Shown in pieces: positions 7,954 to 34,188 of a stretch of DNA of 35,306 bases. Both the position numbers and the translations under genes were made by a program. The notes under the pieces were generated by a model. That model saw nothing but the letters and a program-made list of their open reading frames with translations. It did not search any database and had not been told where the DNA came from. How positions within the stretch are numbered: position 1 is the stretch's first letter; every line of letters starts with the position of its first letter. The stretch lies in contig JAFURY010000006.1 in the NCBI GenBank assembly GCA_017480795.1, forward strand, positions 1 through 35,306. The letters are read 5' to 3'. Source of the DNA: Succinivibrionaceae bacterium. Lineage in GTDB: Bacteria > Pseudomonadota > Gammaproteobacteria > Enterobacterales > Succinivibrionaceae.

Positions 7954-9243
7954 TTATTCGTAGTCGCGCTGCATCAGCAACTCCTGAGCATCGGGATTGC
8001 CCAGCTCGGATGCCATGCGCAGATAGCGCTTGGAGGCTTCGTGATCCCGATAGCCGTACTTGTCGGTGTAGTACACGTCAGCCAGATTCATCATGGCAGG
8101 CACAAATTTCTTTTCGGCGGACTTGATCAGCCAGTTCACGCCCTCCACCGGATCCTTCGGAGTGCCGGCGCCGTTGAGCAGCATGAGTCCGGCGAAGTTC
8201 TGGCACTCGGCGTCTCCCATCTTGGCGCCCTTGTAATAGTAGGCGAAGGACTTTTCAGCCGAAATAGGCACGTACTTGCCGTTGGAGTACAGCTCGCCCA
8301 GAAGTCTCAGCGCCGCAAGATTGTTCTGGGAGGCTGCGCGCTGGATCAGCTCCATGCCCTTGAGTGCGTTGGGATCGGTGCCCTGGCCCTTGAGATACAT
8401 CATGCCGCCTTCGATCATGGCGTCCTGCAGCTTCGCCTTGGCGGCGGTTTCGAAGTACTTGAGGGCCTCAACGAAATTGATTCCGACGCCCGCGCCGTCG
8501 CGGTACATGCGGGCCACCGCCAGGGCGCTGTCGGCATTGTCCAGATCCGCCGACTTCCTGTACAGTTCGAAGGCCTTGACCGGATCCTTGTTCACTCCCT
8601 GTCCGGCCAGATAGAAGCCCGCCAGGATTTCCATGGCCCGCGGATTGTTGCCCGCCACGGATTTTTCAAGATAAGGCAGTGCATCGTTGAGATAGTTCTG
8701 TTCAAGGAGAATTTCGGCCACGCTCAGCTGCGCCTCGGCATTGCCGGCATCGGCCGAGAGTCTGAAATACTTTTCCGCCTGCTCCTTGGAGTAATAAGAG
8801 CTTTTAGGATCTGACGCCATGACTCCCAGAGAGAAGTTCGCATCGTTGCTGCCGAGTCTGGCAGCCTTCTCGTAGTAGAAGTGCGCATCGTTCTCGTCGG
8901 CGGTCACGCCCTTGCCTTCCATGTACAGATTGGCCAGGTTGTTGGCGGCGTCGGCAAGATCGGCCCCGGCCGCCTGCTTGTAGTAGTCCGCGGCCTTGGA
9001 GTAATCCTGCTGGGTTCCCCAGCCGTTCTCATACATGGCGCCCAGCAGGTTTACAGCCTGGGCATCCTTGTAGGATGCGGCCTTTTCGCAATTTTTGATG
9101 GCGTCCTCATACGCCTTGCTGTCAAAGCTGCCGTAGCAGGCGTTGGCGCTTTCAATGGAAGCCTGACTTTCCGCCAGCGCAAGGCCAGGGACGCAGGAGG
9201 CGCAGGCTGCGATCGATACTGCAATCAACTGAGATTTGTTCAT
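7954..9243 (-). CDS. Secreted Sel1-like repeat (TPR-like) protein
   Basis: This 429-aa protein has a signal peptide ending near ALAES (residues 1-26), followed by a chain of about ten Sel1-type helical repeats. Typical units are visible: LLGAMYENGWGTQQDYSKAA, NLYMEGKGVTADENDAHFYY and AGFYLAGQGVNKDPVKAFEL. Such proteins form solenoids that mediate protein contacts in the periplasm. The frame extends upstream to 9345, but the ATG at 9243 begins a perfect signal peptide and has AAGGA upstream; the extension would bury it. A TATAAT box lies 38 bp upstream. No partner is evident from the neighbours. Confidence 0.9.
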   Translation of the reverse strand: MNKSQLIAVSIAACASCVPGLALAESQASIESANACYGSFDSKAYEDAIKNCEKAASYKDAQAVNLLGAMYENGWGTQQDYSKAADYYKQAAGADLADAANNLANLYMEGKGVTADENDAHFYYEKAARLGSNDANFSLGVMASDPKSSYYSKEQAEKYFRLSADAGNAEAQLSVAEILLEQNYLNDALPYLEKSVAGNNPRAMEILAGFYLAGQGVNKDPVKAFELYRKSADLDNADSALAVARMYRDGAGVGINFVEALKYFETAAKAKLQDAMIEGGMMYLKGQGTDPNALKGMELIQRAASQNNLAALRLLGELYSNGKYVPISAEKSFAYYYKGAKMGDAECQNFAGLMLLNGAGTPKDPVEGVNWLIKSAEKKFVPAMMNLADVYYTDKYGYRDHEASKRYLRMASELGNPDAQELLMQRDYE

Positions 9244-9280
9244 GGTATGTATGATCCTTTTGATTGTCACAATTGGTACG

Positions 9281-9286
9281 ATTATA
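9281..9286 (-). promoter_or_regulatory. -10 box candidate for the Sel1-repeat gene
   Basis: TATAAT reads on the minus strand at 9286-9281, 38 bp before the start codon of the Sel1-repeat gene. The surrounding sequence is AT-rich in an otherwise GC-rich region. No good -35 element stands 16-18 bp upstream, so the promoter is only a candidate. The rest of 9287-9540 holds nothing I can identify. Confidence 0.35.
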
Positions 9287-9539
9287 TAATCACAGGCGGG
9301 GCGTAATGAGAATATGAGCCATTTTTCATTTTTAATTGTGAGCATGATTGCAGATCACAAGACGGCAAAGAACGCATCGCGCCACCGGAAACGCCAGCCT
9401 GCTCAGGCGGTTCAGGACGGAGCTTTCCGACAGGAAAACCGGACTTGTCGCCGCCCTGCAGGCGCGTGTCAGGCGGCATGAAACCGCGCGCGGCCGTCAG
9501 ATCCGTCCCTGTGGCGGAATTCTGAAAGCGCCCGGAATC

Positions 9540-10251: not shown

Positions 10252-13200
10252 TCAAAACACTTCCGGAAAAGTCTCCAGCGCCTTGAGCATCTGGGGATCC
10301 GAGGTGAACAGCGCGGGTTCCAGTCCGATCTCCTTCAGCTTCGCCAGGGCGGCAAGCGCCGCCTGCGCCTCATGCTGGGACTTCATTGCAAGAGAGTCGT
10401 CGGCAAACACCCGCCTCAGACCCCTGGCGCCAGAAATCTCAAGCAGTCCCAGTCCCATGGCCACGGCCGAGGCCAGAAGCGCATCAGACGTCATGGCCGA
10501 GGGCTGCAGAGCGACGCCGCCCCGACTTTCGTCGACAATCTCCAGACTTATCCCGCAGCCGTCCTGCGGAAGGGAGATCCGGACGGTTCTGAATTTCAGC
10601 GCCGGGACCATCGCCGAGACAAACTTCGTGGCCGTCTCCGCAAGCCGGGCGACGGTGACGTTGCGGGCCGAATTTGAAAAGCCGGCGCCATCGTCAACCT
10701 CGGCCAGCTCCGGATCCCCCTCCAGACGCCCAAGCCGCTCCGTCATTTCCTCAAGTTCCTCCTTCGCCGCCTGCGCCTTGCCCGCCTCGTCAAGATACCG
10801 CTGCGTCACCAGGCGCCGCCTGGCGGTCTCCTCATCCAGCCGGAATCGGGCGGCGCGCTGCCTTTCAATCCACTGCTCGTCCAGAAAGCCGTCGGTGATG
10901 TCCTCCGGACCGACATCCGGAATCAGTCTCAGCTTCATGTCGTATTCTTCCCTGGCAAGTCTGAGAGCGGCCTCCGAACTCTCGTTTGCTATAACCGCGG
11001 CGGCCAGATCGTCGTCGGCCTTCTCCACCTGATCCCGCAGCCTCTCGTAGTAATCGGGCTTCCGATCCAGAATTTCAGACAGGAAGGCCGCGGTCATGTC
11101 CTTGTTCTGCTCCAGAAACTCGTCGATGCTTTCGGCGCTGTCGGATATCTCCTGGCGGCAGTCGGCGATCCTGACGTTGATCTGCTCCAGTTCGGCCGCG
11201 ACGTTTTCAATGCTGACAGAGACCGCGTCAACCTCCGCGTTGATCTCCCGCAGCTGACGTTTTGAAAGTTCCTCCCTGGCGTTGAGATTCTCCATGGCGT
11301 GATCCACGGTGTCGTCCAGCACCCGGGATCTCTGCTCCTTCAGCTCCTCCAGCTCGTCCCGGCTCTGTTCGAGATCGGCTTCCGCCTGCTGGCTTGCGGC
11401 GATGCGCTCGTCCAGGGTGGATTTGGCCACATGCTCCTCGTTCTGGCGGTTCTCCTGACTGGAGAGCATCTTGGCGTAGGACTCCGTGGAGCTGATGTAG
11501 TCGCGGCACTCCTTCTCCCATCCGGCAATGGCCGCCTCCTTTTCCGCCATGGAATGATTCTCCCGGACGAAGCTGTTGTAGAGAACGTCCCACCGCTCCC
11601 CCATGTAGCGCCGGAGAGTTTCGTCGAGTTCGGCAATCTGCCCCCGGTACAGAGCCAGGTCGCTCTCCAGCAGCTTCAGCTCCTCGGCGTTGCGGCTGTA
11701 ATCGGCGCTGAGCTCGTCCCGAACCTTGCGAATCCCGGACACCTTCTCGCTGACCAGGTTCCGCTGATTGGTCATAACGGTAAAGTTGCGGAAGGCCTTG
11801 TCGTTGCGATCCTTCAGCTGCAGCAGATCGTCGAACTGGCGGATTGAGATCTGCAGCATGGATCTGATCTCCGAGCTGGCCCGTCTGAAGCTTTCGGCGG
11901 TAAACTGTCCTTCGCCGTTGTCCCAGCGCGTCTCCAGTTTCCGTCCCTGGCAGCGTTCGGCAAGAGAGCGGCAGAGCCGGTTGATTTCATCCAGAGTCTC
12001 GTCAAGCTGAACGGAAACCTCCCGGTTCTGATCCCGCAGCCCGTCCAGTCTCTGTCTGATGCCGGCGTTTTCCTCCTCCAGCATCCGTCTTTCCTCCGAC
12101 AGCTCCTGCCGATCCTCGACCAGACTCCGCTTCTCCCGGTTGACCTCGGCGATGAAGGAAGCGATGCCGTCCACGGTGCCGCCGCAGAGAGGACAGCGCT
12201 CCCCGTCGTGGATGCCCGAGCGGATATGGCTGAATTCCGACACCTTCTCGTTGACCCGCAGGAGAAAATCCAGATTGGCGATTTTCTTTTCCATGGCGAT
12301 GATCTTTTCATCCGACATGGCCAGCCGCTCTTCGGCTGACCGGATCCCCTTTCTCAGATCCTCAAGGATCTCGTGCTGATTCTCGTATCGGACGAAGCAC
12401 GCCTCCGTGGCATCGGCATCCGGCTGCAGACTGCGGAGAAACTCGATATCTCCCCCCAGCTGGTTTATCTTCTGATCAGCCTGGTTCTCATCGGCGCTGG
12501 TCTTGGCCGATTTGACAGTCTGCAGCGCCATGTCCTGATCGTTTTCCTGGCGCACGGCATCGGCAAAACCGGTTTCGGCCTCGTCAAGCCGAAGCTTCAT
12601 CCCCGCCACGATCAGGGAAAGCTCCCGCTGCTCCTGTTCCGCCCCTTTGAGCCGGGCATCGGTTTCAATGAACTTGGTCATGCAGTCGATGACCTTCTCC
12701 AGATCGCGGCAGCAGGGCTCCAGATCGGAATTCGCATCAACGTAGGCGGCCAGCCGGGCGGTTTCCTCACTTTGCTTCGCAAGCTCGTCGCTTAAAGCAT
12801 CAAGACGCTCCCGGGCCTGCCGCGCATCGTTTTTCTTCTGGGACAGCGCCTCTTCCAGCGCCCGGCAGCGGCTTTCCTGCACCGCAATCAGACCGTCAAG
12901 CTTCTGAGCCGAATCAATGGCCACCGTCTGTCCGTCCTTTGACGACGAGAAATCGTCGGCCGCCTTCTCGGCCTGGCTCTGCCTTATTTTCAGTTCCTCC
13001 AGTTCGGATATCAGCTGCTCCCGCCTGCTTTTGAGTCCGCCCGCCTCCGACTCAAGAGCCGAAAGCCGCTCCTCCTCCTCTCTGAGCTTGCGATAGCTTA
13101 TGCTGCAGCCCTTCTGCAGACGCTCGTAGTTTTCAAGCAGCCGCCGATCCTCCCGGGCATCCTCCACCGCCTTCTCCTGACGCCGCAGTTCGATCTTCGT

Positions 13201-13653
13201 TTCCTGATTTTCCGCCATTGCCCGCCGCAGCTGCGCGCCGCATTCCTCCAGCTGCTCGAAATCATAAAGCAGCTTCTCGGTTTCAGCGCTCTGGCGGCTG
13301 TTGTCCTCCAGGAAGGCCACGGCATCCCGGTACTCCTCCTCGGTCACGGTGCGCACCTCGCCGCAAAGATCCTGCCGGGCTCTGATCTCCTGTCTCAGGC
13401 TCGCCAGATACCCGACGGCCGACTTTCTGAGTCCTTCGCATACCGCCTCCCCCGCAATGCCGCACAGCAGCGGAAAACGCTCGGATGGTCTGCAGGCAAG
13501 CAGACGCAGCGCATCGGATGGCGAAAGAAGCACGCCGTCGGCCGGAGCGCCGGGCTCGAAATCCCGCAGTCCCGGCACGGCCGGACGCGCGCCGGCGTCC
13601 TCCAGGGCCACCCACTTTCCCTGACGGTTGATCTGAAACTGCTTTTTGTTCAC
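10252..13653 (-). CDS. Rad50/SbcC-like coiled-coil zinc-hook protein lacking Walker A
   Basis: This 1133-aa protein is almost entirely heptad coiled coil. It is split near the middle by a zinc-hook motif, CPLCGG, with cysteines at residues 487 and 490 (codons at 12184-12195), as in Rad50/SbcC. The C-terminal ~100 residues are placed like an SMC-type ATPase C-lobe. The signature motif is replaced by PSAMTSDALLASAVAMGLG, and the Walker B region reads RRVFADDSL at 1081-1088. The N-terminus (residues 1-95) has no GxxGxGK[ST] P-loop. ATP hydrolysis therefore looks unlikely unless a partner supplies the N-lobe. The GTG start at 13653 has CGGAG about 10 nt upstream, and a strong promoter is at 13742-13770. 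No sbcD/mre11-type nuclease gene is adjacent. Role unknown; a DNA-tethering or structural role is inference. Confidence 0.8.
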   Translation of the reverse strand: MNKKQFQINRQGKWVALEDAGARPAVPGLRDFEPGAPADGVLLSPSDALRLLACRPSERFPLLCGIAGEAVCEGLRKSAVGYLASLRQEIRARQDLCGEVRTVTEEEYRDAVAFLEDNSRQSAETEKLLYDFEQLEECGAQLRRAMAENQETKIELRRQEKAVEDAREDRRLLENYERLQKGCSISYRKLREEEERLSALESEAGGLKSRREQLISELEELKIRQSQAEKAADDFSSSKDGQTVAIDSAQKLDGLIAVQESRCRALEEALSQKKNDARQARERLDALSDELAKQSEETARLAAYVDANSDLEPCCRDLEKVIDCMTKFIETDARLKGAEQEQRELSLIVAGMKLRLDEAETGFADAVRQENDQDMALQTVKSAKTSADENQADQKINQLGGDIEFLRSLQPDADATEACFVRYENQHEILEDLRKGIRSAEERLAMSDEKIIAMEKKIANLDFLLRVNEKVSEFSHIRSGIHDGERCPLCGGTVDGIASFIAEVNREKRSLVEDRQELSEERRMLEEENAGIRQRLDGLRDQNREVSVQLDETLDEINRLCRSLAERCQGRKLETRWDNGEGQFTAESFRRASSEIRSMLQISIRQFDDLLQLKDRNDKAFRNFTVMTNQRNLVSEKVSGIRKVRDELSADYSRNAEELKLLESDLALYRGQIAELDETLRRYMGERWDVLYNSFVRENHSMAEKEAAIAGWEKECRDYISSTESYAKMLSSQENRQNEEHVAKSTLDERIAASQQAEADLEQSRDELEELKEQRSRVLDDTVDHAMENLNAREELSKRQLREINAEVDAVSVSIENVAAELEQINVRIADCRQEISDSAESIDEFLEQNKDMTAAFLSEILDRKPDYYERLRDQVEKADDDLAAAVIANESSEAALRLAREEYDMKLRLIPDVGPEDITDGFLDEQWIERQRAARFRLDEETARRRLVTQRYLDEAGKAQAAKEELEEMTERLGRLEGDPELAEVDDGAGFSNSARNVTVARLAETATKFVSAMVPALKFRTVRISLPQDGCGISLEIVDESRGGVALQPSAMTSDALLASAVAMGLGLLEISGARGLRRVFADDSLAMKSQHEAQAALAALAKLKEIGLEPALFTSDPQMLKALETFPEVF

Positions 13654-13979: not shown

Positions 13980-14309
13980 GTGAAAAGAACAGACAGCGAA
14001 AACCAACTCACAGATCTTGCCAGGGATCCGTCCTGGGAAATCCACGGAAGTCTCTGGAACGACATCGACCAGGACTGCTTCCTGCGATTCGAGGATCTGC
14101 CGGCCAACTACAACCAGGTGCACGAGGTGAGGATCCTGCGGGACGAGTTCAGAATGGCGGCCTACGACTACACCCTCAACAACGTGTTCTATCCCGGCGA
14201 TCTCCGCGGCGCCTTCACCGCCGTGAACGTGATGGAGGATATGAAGCGGAGGATTCTCCTGGCCATGCAGTCCCGCAAAAGCCAGGGCGACAACGTCAGC
14301 GGATCCTGA
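13980..14309 (+). CDS. Hypothetical protein, 109 aa
   Basis: This small, soluble, mixed-charge protein has no signal peptide and is not recognised. GTG at 13980 is preceded by GGAG with 6-nt spacing, so translation is credible. It is rich in aromatic and acidic residues in its first half (WEIHGSLWNDIDQDCF) and ends in a basic, Ser-rich tail. A strong hairpin follows its stop, so it is probably transcribed alone rather than with rdgC. Its codon use resembles the surrounding core genes. It is divergent from the zinc-hook coiled-coil gene with a ~325-bp promoter region between them. Confidence 0.7.
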   Translation: MKRTDSENQLTDLARDPSWEIHGSLWNDIDQDCFLRFEDLPANYNQVHEVRILRDEFRMAAYDYTLNNVFYPGDLRGAFTAVNVMEDMKRRILLAMQSRKSQGDNVSGS

Positions 14310-14359: not shown

Positions 14360-14401
14360 TTCCAATTTCAGAAAAAAATCAGCTTCAAGGAAGAATCAGC
14401 A

Positions 14402-15310
14402 ATGTGGTTTAAGAATCTTCGCGTATACCATCTCAAGGAAAACCTTTCCATCAGTCAGGAAACGCTGGAAACCCAGCTCAAAAGCTTCGCCTTCGCCCCC
14501 TGCACCTCGGATCAGACCGAAACCCAGGGTCTGGTGCCGCCACTGGGAGACAAGACGGACAGTCTCTATCACGTCAGCGACGGACAGTATCTTTTCGCCG
14601 CGCGCTTCGAGAAAAAGCTGCTGCCGGCCTCGGTGGTCAAGGACATGGTGAACGAGAAGGTGGAGGAATTCGAATCGGAGAAGGGAAGAAAGCCCAAGGG
14701 CAAGGAAAAGAGCGAAATCAAGGATGCGGTGATGCTCTATCTTCTGCCCAAAGCCTTTGCCGTTCACAGCGACATCTACGCCATCATCGACCCGAAGAAC
14801 GCCCTGGTTTATGTGGACACCGCCTCCGCCGCCAAAGCCGAGGCTGTGCTTTCGCTGGTGAGAAAAGCCCTGGGAACGCTGCCGGTGGAGCCGCTGAAGG
14901 TCAACGAGAGCGCCAGCTCGGCCATGACCGGCTGGCTTCTGGAAAACCGTCTGCCTTCCAGATTCCAGACCGGCGATCAGATCTCCATGTACTCCACCCG
15001 CAACGAAAAGAAGGTGGTCAACGCCAAAACCGACGATCTGATGGAGGACGAAATTCTCAACCACCTGAAGCAGGACAAGATCGTGTCGAAAATCGCGCTG
15101 GTTTTCGACGAAACCCTGAGCTTTGTGCTTGACGAGGAGCTGAACATCAAGCGTCTGAAGTTCACGGAAGAATTCTTCGAGCGGGAGGAGGAGACCGAAA
15201 ACGAGGACGCGCTGGCACGCCTTGCCGCCGACATCTTCGCCCAGCTGGCGGTGTTCTCCCGTCTGACTCCGTACATCATTCGCGAATTCGGCGGTCTTGC
15301 CCAGTCATGA
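14402..15310 (+). CDS. rdgC: Recombination-associated protein RdgC
   Basis: RdgC is a ring-shaped DNA-binding protein of beta- and gammaproteobacteria that coats duplex DNA and restrains RecA. The 302-aa product matches the E. coli protein (303 aa) in length and along its whole course: MWFKNLRVYHL at the start, then FAPCTS, VPPLGD, LLPKAF, the KAEAVLSLVRKALGTLPV block, and KRLKF near the C-terminus. AAGGAAG lies 8 nt before the ATG at 14402. Its stop codon overlaps the start of trhP by 4 bp (ATGA), so the two are translationally coupled. Antisense frames across this gene are shadows. Confidence 0.95.
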   Translation: MWFKNLRVYHLKENLSISQETLETQLKSFAFAPCTSDQTETQGLVPPLGDKTDSLYHVSDGQYLFAARFEKKLLPASVVKDMVNEKVEEFESEKGRKPKGKEKSEIKDAVMLYLLPKAFAVHSDIYAIIDPKNALVYVDTASAAKAEAVLSLVRKALGTLPVEPLKVNESASSAMTGWLLENRLPSRFQTGDQISMYSTRNEKKVVNAKTDDLMEDEILNHLKQDKIVSKIALVFDETLSFVLDEELNIKRLKFTEEFFEREEETENEDALARLAADIFAQLAVFSRLTPYIIREFGGLAQS

Positions 15311-16599
15311 TGAGGAAAACCGAACTGCTCTCGCCGGCGGGAACCCTCAAAAACCTCCGTTACGCCCTGGCCTACGGCGCGGATGCGGTGTATGCCGGCC
15401 AGCCCAGATATTCCCTGAGAGTCCGCAACAACGACTTCGATCTGGAGAATCTGAAAACCGGCATCGCCGAGGCCCACGCCATGGGCAGAAAGGTTTACGT
15501 GGTGGTGAACATTCAGCCCCACAACGCCAAGCTGCGCACCTTCAGGGACGATATGAGGGAGGTGATGTCCCTTGGCCCGGATGCGCTGATCATGAGCGAT
15601 CCGGGACTGATGATGCTGCTGAAGGAGGACTGGCCGGAGGCCTGCATCCATCTTTCGGTGCAGGCCAACGCCGTCAACTGGGCCACGGTGAAATTCTACG
15701 AGAGGTTCGGCGTATCCCGGGTGATCCTGTCCCGGGAGCTGTCCATCGACGAAATCGAAGAGATCCGCCAGCGCTGCCCCGACATCGAGCTTGAGGTGTT
15801 CGTCCACGGCGCCCTGTGCATGGCCTATTCGGGACGCTGCCTGCTGTCGGGCTATCTCAACCACCGGGATCCCAACCAGGGCACCTGCACCAACGCCTGC
15901 CGCTGGAAGTACTCCATAAAGCCGGCGGTGGAGGACGATCTGGGGAACATCGTGGCGCTGGGGCATACCACCCAGCCGGCGCTGCTGGCCGAGGAGACCC
16001 GGCCCGACGAGCTCATGAGTGCCTTCGAGGACGAGCATGGCACCTACATTTTCAATTCCAGGGATCTCAAGGCGGTAAGGCTGGTGGAGCAGCTGGTCAA
16101 AATCGGGGTGGATTCGCTGAAAATCGAAGGCCGCACCAAATCCTTCTACTACGTGGCCCGCACCGCCCAGATCTACCGCAGAGCCATCGACGACGCCCTG
16201 GCGGGAAGGCCCTACAATCCCGCTCTCTCCCGCGAACTTGACACCCTGGCCGCTCGGGGAACCACCGAAGGCTTCCTGGTCAGAAAGAACCACAGCGAAT
16301 ATCAGAACTACCAGCAGGGCACCTCCGTCTGCAGCAGCGCGGTTCTGGCGGGAGAGATCACGGGAGCCGACGGGACTATGGCCTACGTGGACGTAAGAAA
16401 CCGTTTCCAGGAGGGAGACGACATCCGGATCATCACCCCCAACGGCGATTTCGATGCGAAGGTGGCGAACATGCTGGATCAGAAGAAAAACCCGGTAGCC
16501 GTGGCTCCCGGAGACGGGCACAAAGTGTGTCTGCCCCTTGGCATGAGCGCCGATCAGCTGAAGCACGGCATTGTTCTGAAACTGCTGGGGAGGCCGTGA
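15307..16599 (+). CDS. trhP: Peptidase U32-family tRNA U34 hydroxylase
   Basis: TrhP (formerly YegQ) uses prephenate to form 5-hydroxyuridine at the wobble position of certain tRNAs and depends on iron-sulfur cluster formation. The 430-aa protein has the U32 signature EVFVHGALCMAYSGRCLLS, followed by CTNACRWKY, which supplies more of the conserved cysteines. It begins ELLSPAGTLKNLRYALAYGADAVY as YegQ does. Length is close to the E. coli protein (about 453 aa). Two ATG codons stand in tandem at 15307 and 15310; the first overlaps the rdgC stop. A YfhL-type ferredoxin gene follows directly, which fits an electron or cluster partner. Confidence 0.92.
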   Translation: MMRKTELLSPAGTLKNLRYALAYGADAVYAGQPRYSLRVRNNDFDLENLKTGIAEAHAMGRKVYVVVNIQPHNAKLRTFRDDMREVMSLGPDALIMSDPGLMMLLKEDWPEACIHLSVQANAVNWATVKFYERFGVSRVILSRELSIDEIEEIRQRCPDIELEVFVHGALCMAYSGRCLLSGYLNHRDPNQGTCTNACRWKYSIKPAVEDDLGNIVALGHTTQPALLAEETRPDELMSAFEDEHGTYIFNSRDLKAVRLVEQLVKIGVDSLKIEGRTKSFYYVARTAQIYRRAIDDALAGRPYNPALSRELDTLAARGTTEGFLVRKNHSEYQNYQQGTSVCSSAVLAGEITGADGTMAYVDVRNRFQEGDDIRIITPNGDFDAKVANMLDQKKNPVAVAPGDGHKVCLPLGMSADQLKHGIVLKLLGRP

Positions 16600-33708: not shown

Positions 33709-34188
33709 ATGATTCTATTTCATGGAAGCAACCAGGAAATCACCAATCCGGGTTTGCGCTATTCGCGCCGCAACCTGGATTTTGGTATCGGTTTTTACAC
33801 CACGACTGATTTGTCGCAGGCAGAGAAATGGGCAAGGCGCGTTGCCAAAATCCGCAATATTGGCAAACCTGTCGTATCCGTATTCGAAACCGAGCAGAAA
33901 CTATGGACCGAATTGTCGATCCTTGAATTTAAAAAGGCGGATAGCGACTGGCTTCAATTGGTCGTTAATTTTCGCACCGATCAAAAATTAACATGCGACT
34001 ATGATGTCATCGCCGGACCCGTTGCCGACGACAGAACAGTAGACGTAATCAACCAGTACATAGCCGGAACATACAACGAAGAAATTGCCATGAAACTTCT
34101 CCTGCCCATGCAGTTTAAGGATCAATGGGCGCTGAAGACAGAGAATGCTGTTTCGGCTTTGGTCTGGAAGGAGACGATCACCCCATGA
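33709..34188 (+). CDS. DUF3990 ADP-ribosyltransferase-like protein (putative toxin)
   Basis: This 159-aa cytoplasmic protein is of the DUF3990 family, which I place in the ADP-ribosyltransferase superfamily. The N-terminal H in MILFHGSNQEI and the Y in FGIGFYTTTDLSQAEKWA fit the H-Y part of the catalytic set. The later DYDVIAGPVADDRTVDVINQ is the family's conserved core. The ATG at 33709 starts exactly at the domain; the Shine-Dalgarno is poor (AGGA 13 nt away). The stop (TGA 34186-34188) overlaps the next gene by ATGA. Proteins of this family often travel with small DUF3791-type partners, seen here two genes on, so a toxin-antitoxin role is a reasonable inference. The target is unknown. Confidence 0.8.
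   Translation: MILFHGSNQEITNPGLRYSRRNLDFGIGFYTTTDLSQAEKWARRVAKIRNIGKPVVSVFETEQKLWTELSILEFKKADSDWLQLVVNFRTDQKLTCDYDVIAGPVADDRTVDVINQYIAGTYNEEIAMKLLLPMQFKDQWALKTENAVSALVWKETITP

Follow-up and report, generated by a model that had tools for sequence, protein, structure and literature searches.

The locus and its coding sequence

We analysed a 35,306-nucleotide stretch of DNA (the window) from a Succinivibrionaceae bacterium, in which a sequence-only reading had noted a minus-strand open reading frame of 1133 aa with a CPLC hook, no P-loop and altered signature and Walker B motifs. Our analysis bears out this description. The frame is single and uninterrupted, and its product is almost certainly an ATPase-dead paralogue of SbcC, the bacterial Rad50 and an ATPase subunit active in DNA repair; we term it pseudo-SbcC. 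The features of the locus, with the evidence used for each, are the following:

10252..13653, minus strand: pseudo-SbcC coding sequence (1133 aa, GTG start); profile-profile match to SbcC and intact orthologues in three congeners
13366..13539, minus strand: N-lobe remnant (Q-loop strand and following helices); alignment to canonical SbcC and AF2 model
12229..13365, minus strand: first coiled-coil arm, where the protein is constrained; identity comparison, helical in the model
12184..12195, minus strand: zinc-hook motif CPLC; aligns with the SbcC hook CPLCGS, CPLCG being invariant in 4/4 orthologues
10696..12144, minus strand: second coiled-coil arm; conservation profile, helical in the model
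10255..10695, minus strand: degenerate C-lobe, predicted to keep the SbcC/Rad50 C-lobe fold; AF2 fragment, structural match and PDB profile match
10483..10503, minus strand: ABC signature position, PSAMTSD in place of LSGGE; alignment, degenerate in the three orthologues too
10393..10407, minus strand: Walker B position, FADDS in place of F(I/L)DEG; alignment
13980..14309, plus strand: small 109-aa ORF upstream of rdgC and divergent from pseudo-sbcC; conserved in the four other species of the genus (G001 to G004), context only
14399..15310, plus strand: rdgC, neighbour in the conserved slot; PF04381, E 2e-98
15307..16599, plus strand: U32-family peptidase, with which the conserved block ends; PF01136, E 1e-86, and synteny

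The N-terminal lobe, taken at first to be lost as a whole, is in fact partly retained. Some 140 residues, Walker A among them, are gone; what is left is a degenerate Q-loop strand followed by helices (strand 39-42 and helices 44-97 in the AF2 model), with LSPSDA aligned to the canonical LPQGDF. Helical arms flank the CxxC hook motif on both sides in the model, and metal binding by the hook is putative; the AF2 model of the complete rod carries modest confidence (pTM 0.34). According to the conservation profile, the interruptions of the second arm are themselves conserved, namely NGxGxF, the W687/W711 region and a joint-like IPxV...TDG...EWI segment. Elsewhere in the window, a DUF3990 protein (PF13151, E 1e-45) is encoded near the contig end at 33709-34188 on the plus strand.

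SbcC ancestry and loss of the ATP site

When the four pseudo-SbcC orthologues (that of the window and those of three congeners) were compared by hhalign with 22 canonical SbcCs of the family, the two groups aligned colinearly from a point shortly ahead of the Q-loop through to the C-lobe (probability 100, E 6e-49). Searches with hmmsearch between pseudo-SbcC and SbcC gave up to 220 bits and, among solved structures, the pseudo-SbcC profile matched E. coli SbcC (6s6v_C, E 5e-13). This colinear homology upholds the earlier assignment to Rad50/SbcC. As in E. coli SbcC (PDB 6s6v, 6s85 and 7yzo), a Q-loop segment, an arm, the CPLC hook, a second arm, a joint-like segment and a C-lobe follow one another in the same order.

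The last 209 residues were modelled with AF2 (pLDDT 83), and the best structural match of this fragment was chain 7yzo_D of E. coli SbcC (Z 10.7; rmsd 3.7 over 131 residues), with P. furiosus Rad50 second (Z 10.2). Because of these matches, the C-lobe fold that pseudo-SbcC shares with SbcC is predicted to survive despite the lost catalytic motifs. The C-lobe fragment was used for the structural search in place of the full-length model, whose Foldseek matches to SMC and MukB are dominated by coiled coils. Pfam and NCBIfam matches to coiled-coil or SMC families fell far below their cut-offs and were given no weight. Pseudo-SbcC scored 33 bits with NCBIfam sbcc_Staph (cut-off 920), a shortfall that says little because the canonical SbcCs of the family miss the NCBIfam SbcC cut-offs too, and 23 bits, with no Walker A, with NCBIfam ASRP (ClsN/Sph; cut-off 300). 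With SMC and MukB the protein shares an overall coiled-coil architecture; unlike them, it has a CxxC hook, no hinge domain and no working ATPase. Archaeal SMC-related ASRPs (ClsN/Sph) offer another case of a zinc-hook SMC-like protein outside the Rad50-Mre11 pair, but they keep both Walker A and Walker B (PMC9389158), whereas pseudo-SbcC keeps neither in working form.

Unlike SbcC, pseudo-SbcC is devoid of the Walker A lobe, and Walker A, the Q-loop Gln, the SGGE signature, the catalytic Glu, the D-loop and the switch His are missing from all four orthologues. No P-loop of the pattern [AG]x4GK[ST] was found in the frame or in the 1.5 kb upstream, on both strands, for the window and the three orthologues. 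The observation therefore stands against a P-loop displaced upstream by a frameshift or sequencing error, and the homologues, far from carrying a normal N-lobe, are without it too. Pfam matched neither AAA_23 nor SbcC_Walker_B in pseudo-SbcC, whereas both were matched in the canonical SbcCs of its relatives. In the alignment of the four orthologues, in which the exact register of the G004 motifs is less sure, the canonical LPQG of the Q-loop reads SPSD/DLDD/DLDD/GLDE, the signature SGGE reads MTSD/AGSS/VSPA/LKEG, the Walker B stretch DEGFGTLD reads DDSLAMKS/SDGLKGSD/DDGSGSSD/EDGGLAGG and the switch ITHV reads FTSD/VSSD/FSGD/LTSD. As aligned, the catalytic Glu position of Walker B is Asp in 4/4 orthologues.

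Distribution, genomic slot and canonical SbcCD

Orthologues of the window protein (37, 33 and 30% identity) are encoded in three of the four other species of the genus (G002, G003 and G004), and all four sequences, from four rumen species, have the same start point, near-equal length and no N-lobe. Profile searches of 57 family and 394 order genomes found pseudo-SbcC in neither the other 52 family genomes nor the order sample; beyond the genus, the SbcCs that they returned all looked canonical. When the species-genome collection was scanned by pattern, an approach that reaches near relatives best, only the same three relatives came up. The four sequences all come from fragmented metagenome-assembled genomes (MAGs), that of the window (G000, with the window as its contig C18) being 75% complete, and such incompleteness makes the absences soft. 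In the fifth species, G001, the slot holds another gene while the small ORF, rdgC and U32 are kept; because no pseudo-SbcC was found in this 96% complete genome, the protein is probably dispensable there. A mobile-element origin was also considered and rejected, since plasmids, phages and viral contigs yielded no relatives.

In G002, G003 and G004 the gene order is U32, rdgC, small ORF, divergent pseudo-sbcC and then ppk, with rdgC in the same position each time. In the window, the rdgC side of this slot is conserved and the ppk side is rearranged. A Sel1-repeat protein is encoded downstream of pseudo-sbcC (7954-9345, minus strand), where ppk sits in the three orthologous loci. The 109-aa ORF, which matches no Pfam family, lies upstream of rdgC in 5/5 species of the genus and probably corresponds to L119 6417-6866 in the sister genus. 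The sequence-only reading had the gene standing alone, with its own strong promoter and no nuclease neighbour. It is indeed alone on its strand with no sbcD adjacent, and tblastn found no sbcD in the window; it nevertheless sits divergently within a conserved slot. The promoter could not be upheld, since the candidate TTGACA-17-TAGATT (10/12) is at chance level, with 1 found against 0.8 expected in shuffles.

In the sister genus (g10, genome G013), the rdgC-ppk slot holds a canonical sbcD-sbcC in the same orientation, and in genome G023 sbcDC adjoins rdgC; the sbcDC slot next to rdgC overlaps the position of pseudo-sbcC. In E. coli K-12 sbcC is near rdgC too, two genes apart. The rdgC neighbourhood hints weakly at DNA metabolism and could be no more than a legacy of the sbcDC slot; we found no literature linking RdgC and SbcC in Succinivibrionaceae.

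A separate canonical sbcD-sbcC operon is present elsewhere in all four genomes that hold pseudo-SbcC: on contig C138 in the genome of the window, C274 in G002 (cut by the contig end), C75 in G003 and C13 in G004. Wherever their sequence extends far enough, the canonical SbcCs read across the family all show the hook, the signature and Walker B, and with a single exception they fit the pattern employed for Walker A. The SbcC of genus g8 is a giant of 1859 aa with a CPCC hook near residue 825 and intact ATP motifs (G011:C6, G028:C135); among the 57 Succinivibrionaceae genomes, SbcCD seems to be missing altogether from genus g2 and from most of g7.

The four pseudo-SbcCs fall into a single clade of the tree (100/100), the placement of which relative to individual SbcCs is limited by long branches. 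The canonical SbcCs of G000, G001 and G002 group with the sister genus (89/93). That of G004 (L023, on C13) groups with other genera (g8/g11), which suggests that the native sbcDC operon of this species was replaced. The G003 SbcC (L024, on C75) is of a distant 1068-aa type, encoded on a short contig of 38% GC compared with 45% at the pseudo-SbcC locus of the same genome, and may represent either an acquisition or contamination. Most likely, sbcDC gave rise to a second copy or changed its place, and what stayed between rdgC and ppk became truncated and was retained for its arms; the order of these events is a likely history that goes beyond what the tree can prove.

Constraint on the arms and candidate functions

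Identity between G000 and G002 is 36.8% for pseudo-SbcC and 34.3% for canonical SbcC; the dead copy therefore evolves no faster than the working one. Its pN is below pS, with synonymous differences near saturation. Pseudo-SbcC is not decaying.

The distribution of this constraint differs between the two proteins. Over the first arm, G000 and G002 are 37% identical in pseudo-SbcC (95% interval 33-45%) and 23% identical in canonical SbcC (19-27%), with no overlap between the intervals. Identity in the N-lobe remnant is 29% compared with 52% in canonical SbcC, and in the C-lobe 29% compared with 57% (the canonical value from G000-G001, the G002 SbcC being truncated). Besides the hook, the most conserved segments of pseudo-SbcC lie around residues 101-140, 301-420, 581-720 and 881-920. 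These comparisons show that selection acts on the arms of pseudo-SbcC more than on its head remnants, an inversion of the canonical pattern, in which heads are conserved in place of arms.

The hook holds Rad50/SbcC as persistent dimers, and the Rad50 zinc hook, a CxxC at the tip of an antiparallel coiled coil as in pseudo-SbcC, has been described as a constitutive dimerisation module (PMC6969161). That work concerns intact Mre11/Rad50 with a working ATPase head, whereas the head of pseudo-SbcC is dead. By analogy, two pseudo-SbcC copies may join via a zinc ion at their CPLC hooks, and the resulting rod or V-shaped tether would be permanent and need no ATP. A partner, protein or DNA, would bind to the conserved segments of the arms, and the folded but dead C-lobe would be at most a cap or docking surface. 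Such a protein would hold or position things rather than cut DNA, probably in DNA repair or nucleoid organisation. Taken as a whole, mechanism included, a genus-specific, ATPase-dead pseudo-SbcC acting as a tether or scaffold is the reading we favour and consider reasonably probable. A tether without ATP cycling had already been put forward from the sequence. That reading is supported by the SbcC-colinear homology, the loss of ATP motifs in four species and the constraint on hook and arms, while tethering itself is still inferred. It is plausible, and we suggest it tentatively, that this SbcC-derived rod, which stands alone, was domesticated as a scaffold that dimerises through its hook, works without ATP and has a partner of its own binding to the arms.

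Rad50 and SbcC are seen as machines driven by ATP, with hook and arms at the service of the head. If the tether reading is true, Rad50-type arms and hook can carry a selected function without an ATP cycle or a nuclease. A natural paralogue in which the ATP machine is lost and the arms are more constrained than those of the working protein amounts to a separation-of-function case made by evolution, and would allow the role of hooks and arms without ATP to be asked directly. No description of such a protein was found in the open literature searched, a search of limited extent.

The main rival, which we consider unlikely, is that pseudo-SbcC is a regulatory subunit pairing through its hook with canonical SbcC, so that one dead head damps or redirects nuclease activity. 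The coexistence of canonical SbcCD in 4/4 pseudo-SbcC genomes is consistent with such a role, as is the resemblance of the hook surroundings (R...G..CPLCG) to those of canonical SbcC. However, the gene persists where SbcCD is of another lineage (G004) or of the distant 1068-aa type (G003), and this persistence while the would-be partner was swapped in G004, perhaps also in G003, argues against a tightly co-adapted pair. Constraint moreover falls on the arms and not on the hook alone, and G001 has SbcCD without the paralogue.

Somewhat less likely again is a structural or cytoskeletal coiled coil of SbcC descent that has nothing to do with DNA. Constrained arms with conserved non-helical interruptions and invariant Cys and Trp, together with relaxed heads, would suit a protein of this kind, but the hook and the C-lobe fold are kept and the locus lies beside rdgC, a position that by itself counts for little.

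A missing N-lobe beside a present C-lobe would fit a split ATPase whose N-lobe comes from a separate small protein, an idea already raised from the sequence, and there are other ABC proteins that are split. An AAA_23 scan of the five genomes of the genus, however, revealed no short N-lobe ORF common to the four holders, and the one 157-aa N-lobe ORF in G000 adjoins an open frame resembling its continuation. On the C-lobe side the ATP site has been lost too, with signature, Walker B Glu, D-loop and switch His all gone, so that an N-lobe provided from elsewhere would fail to rebuild a standard site. We regard this arrangement as very improbable.

Least probable of all is a decaying pseudogene or an assembly or frameshift artefact: the lost catalytic motifs, MAG origin and fast-evolving head remnants might suggest one, but intact frames of 1130-1150 codons at 30-54% identity in four separate species assemblies, with pN below pS, the same start point and no upstream P-loop, refute it for the four species unless all were mis-assembled alike.
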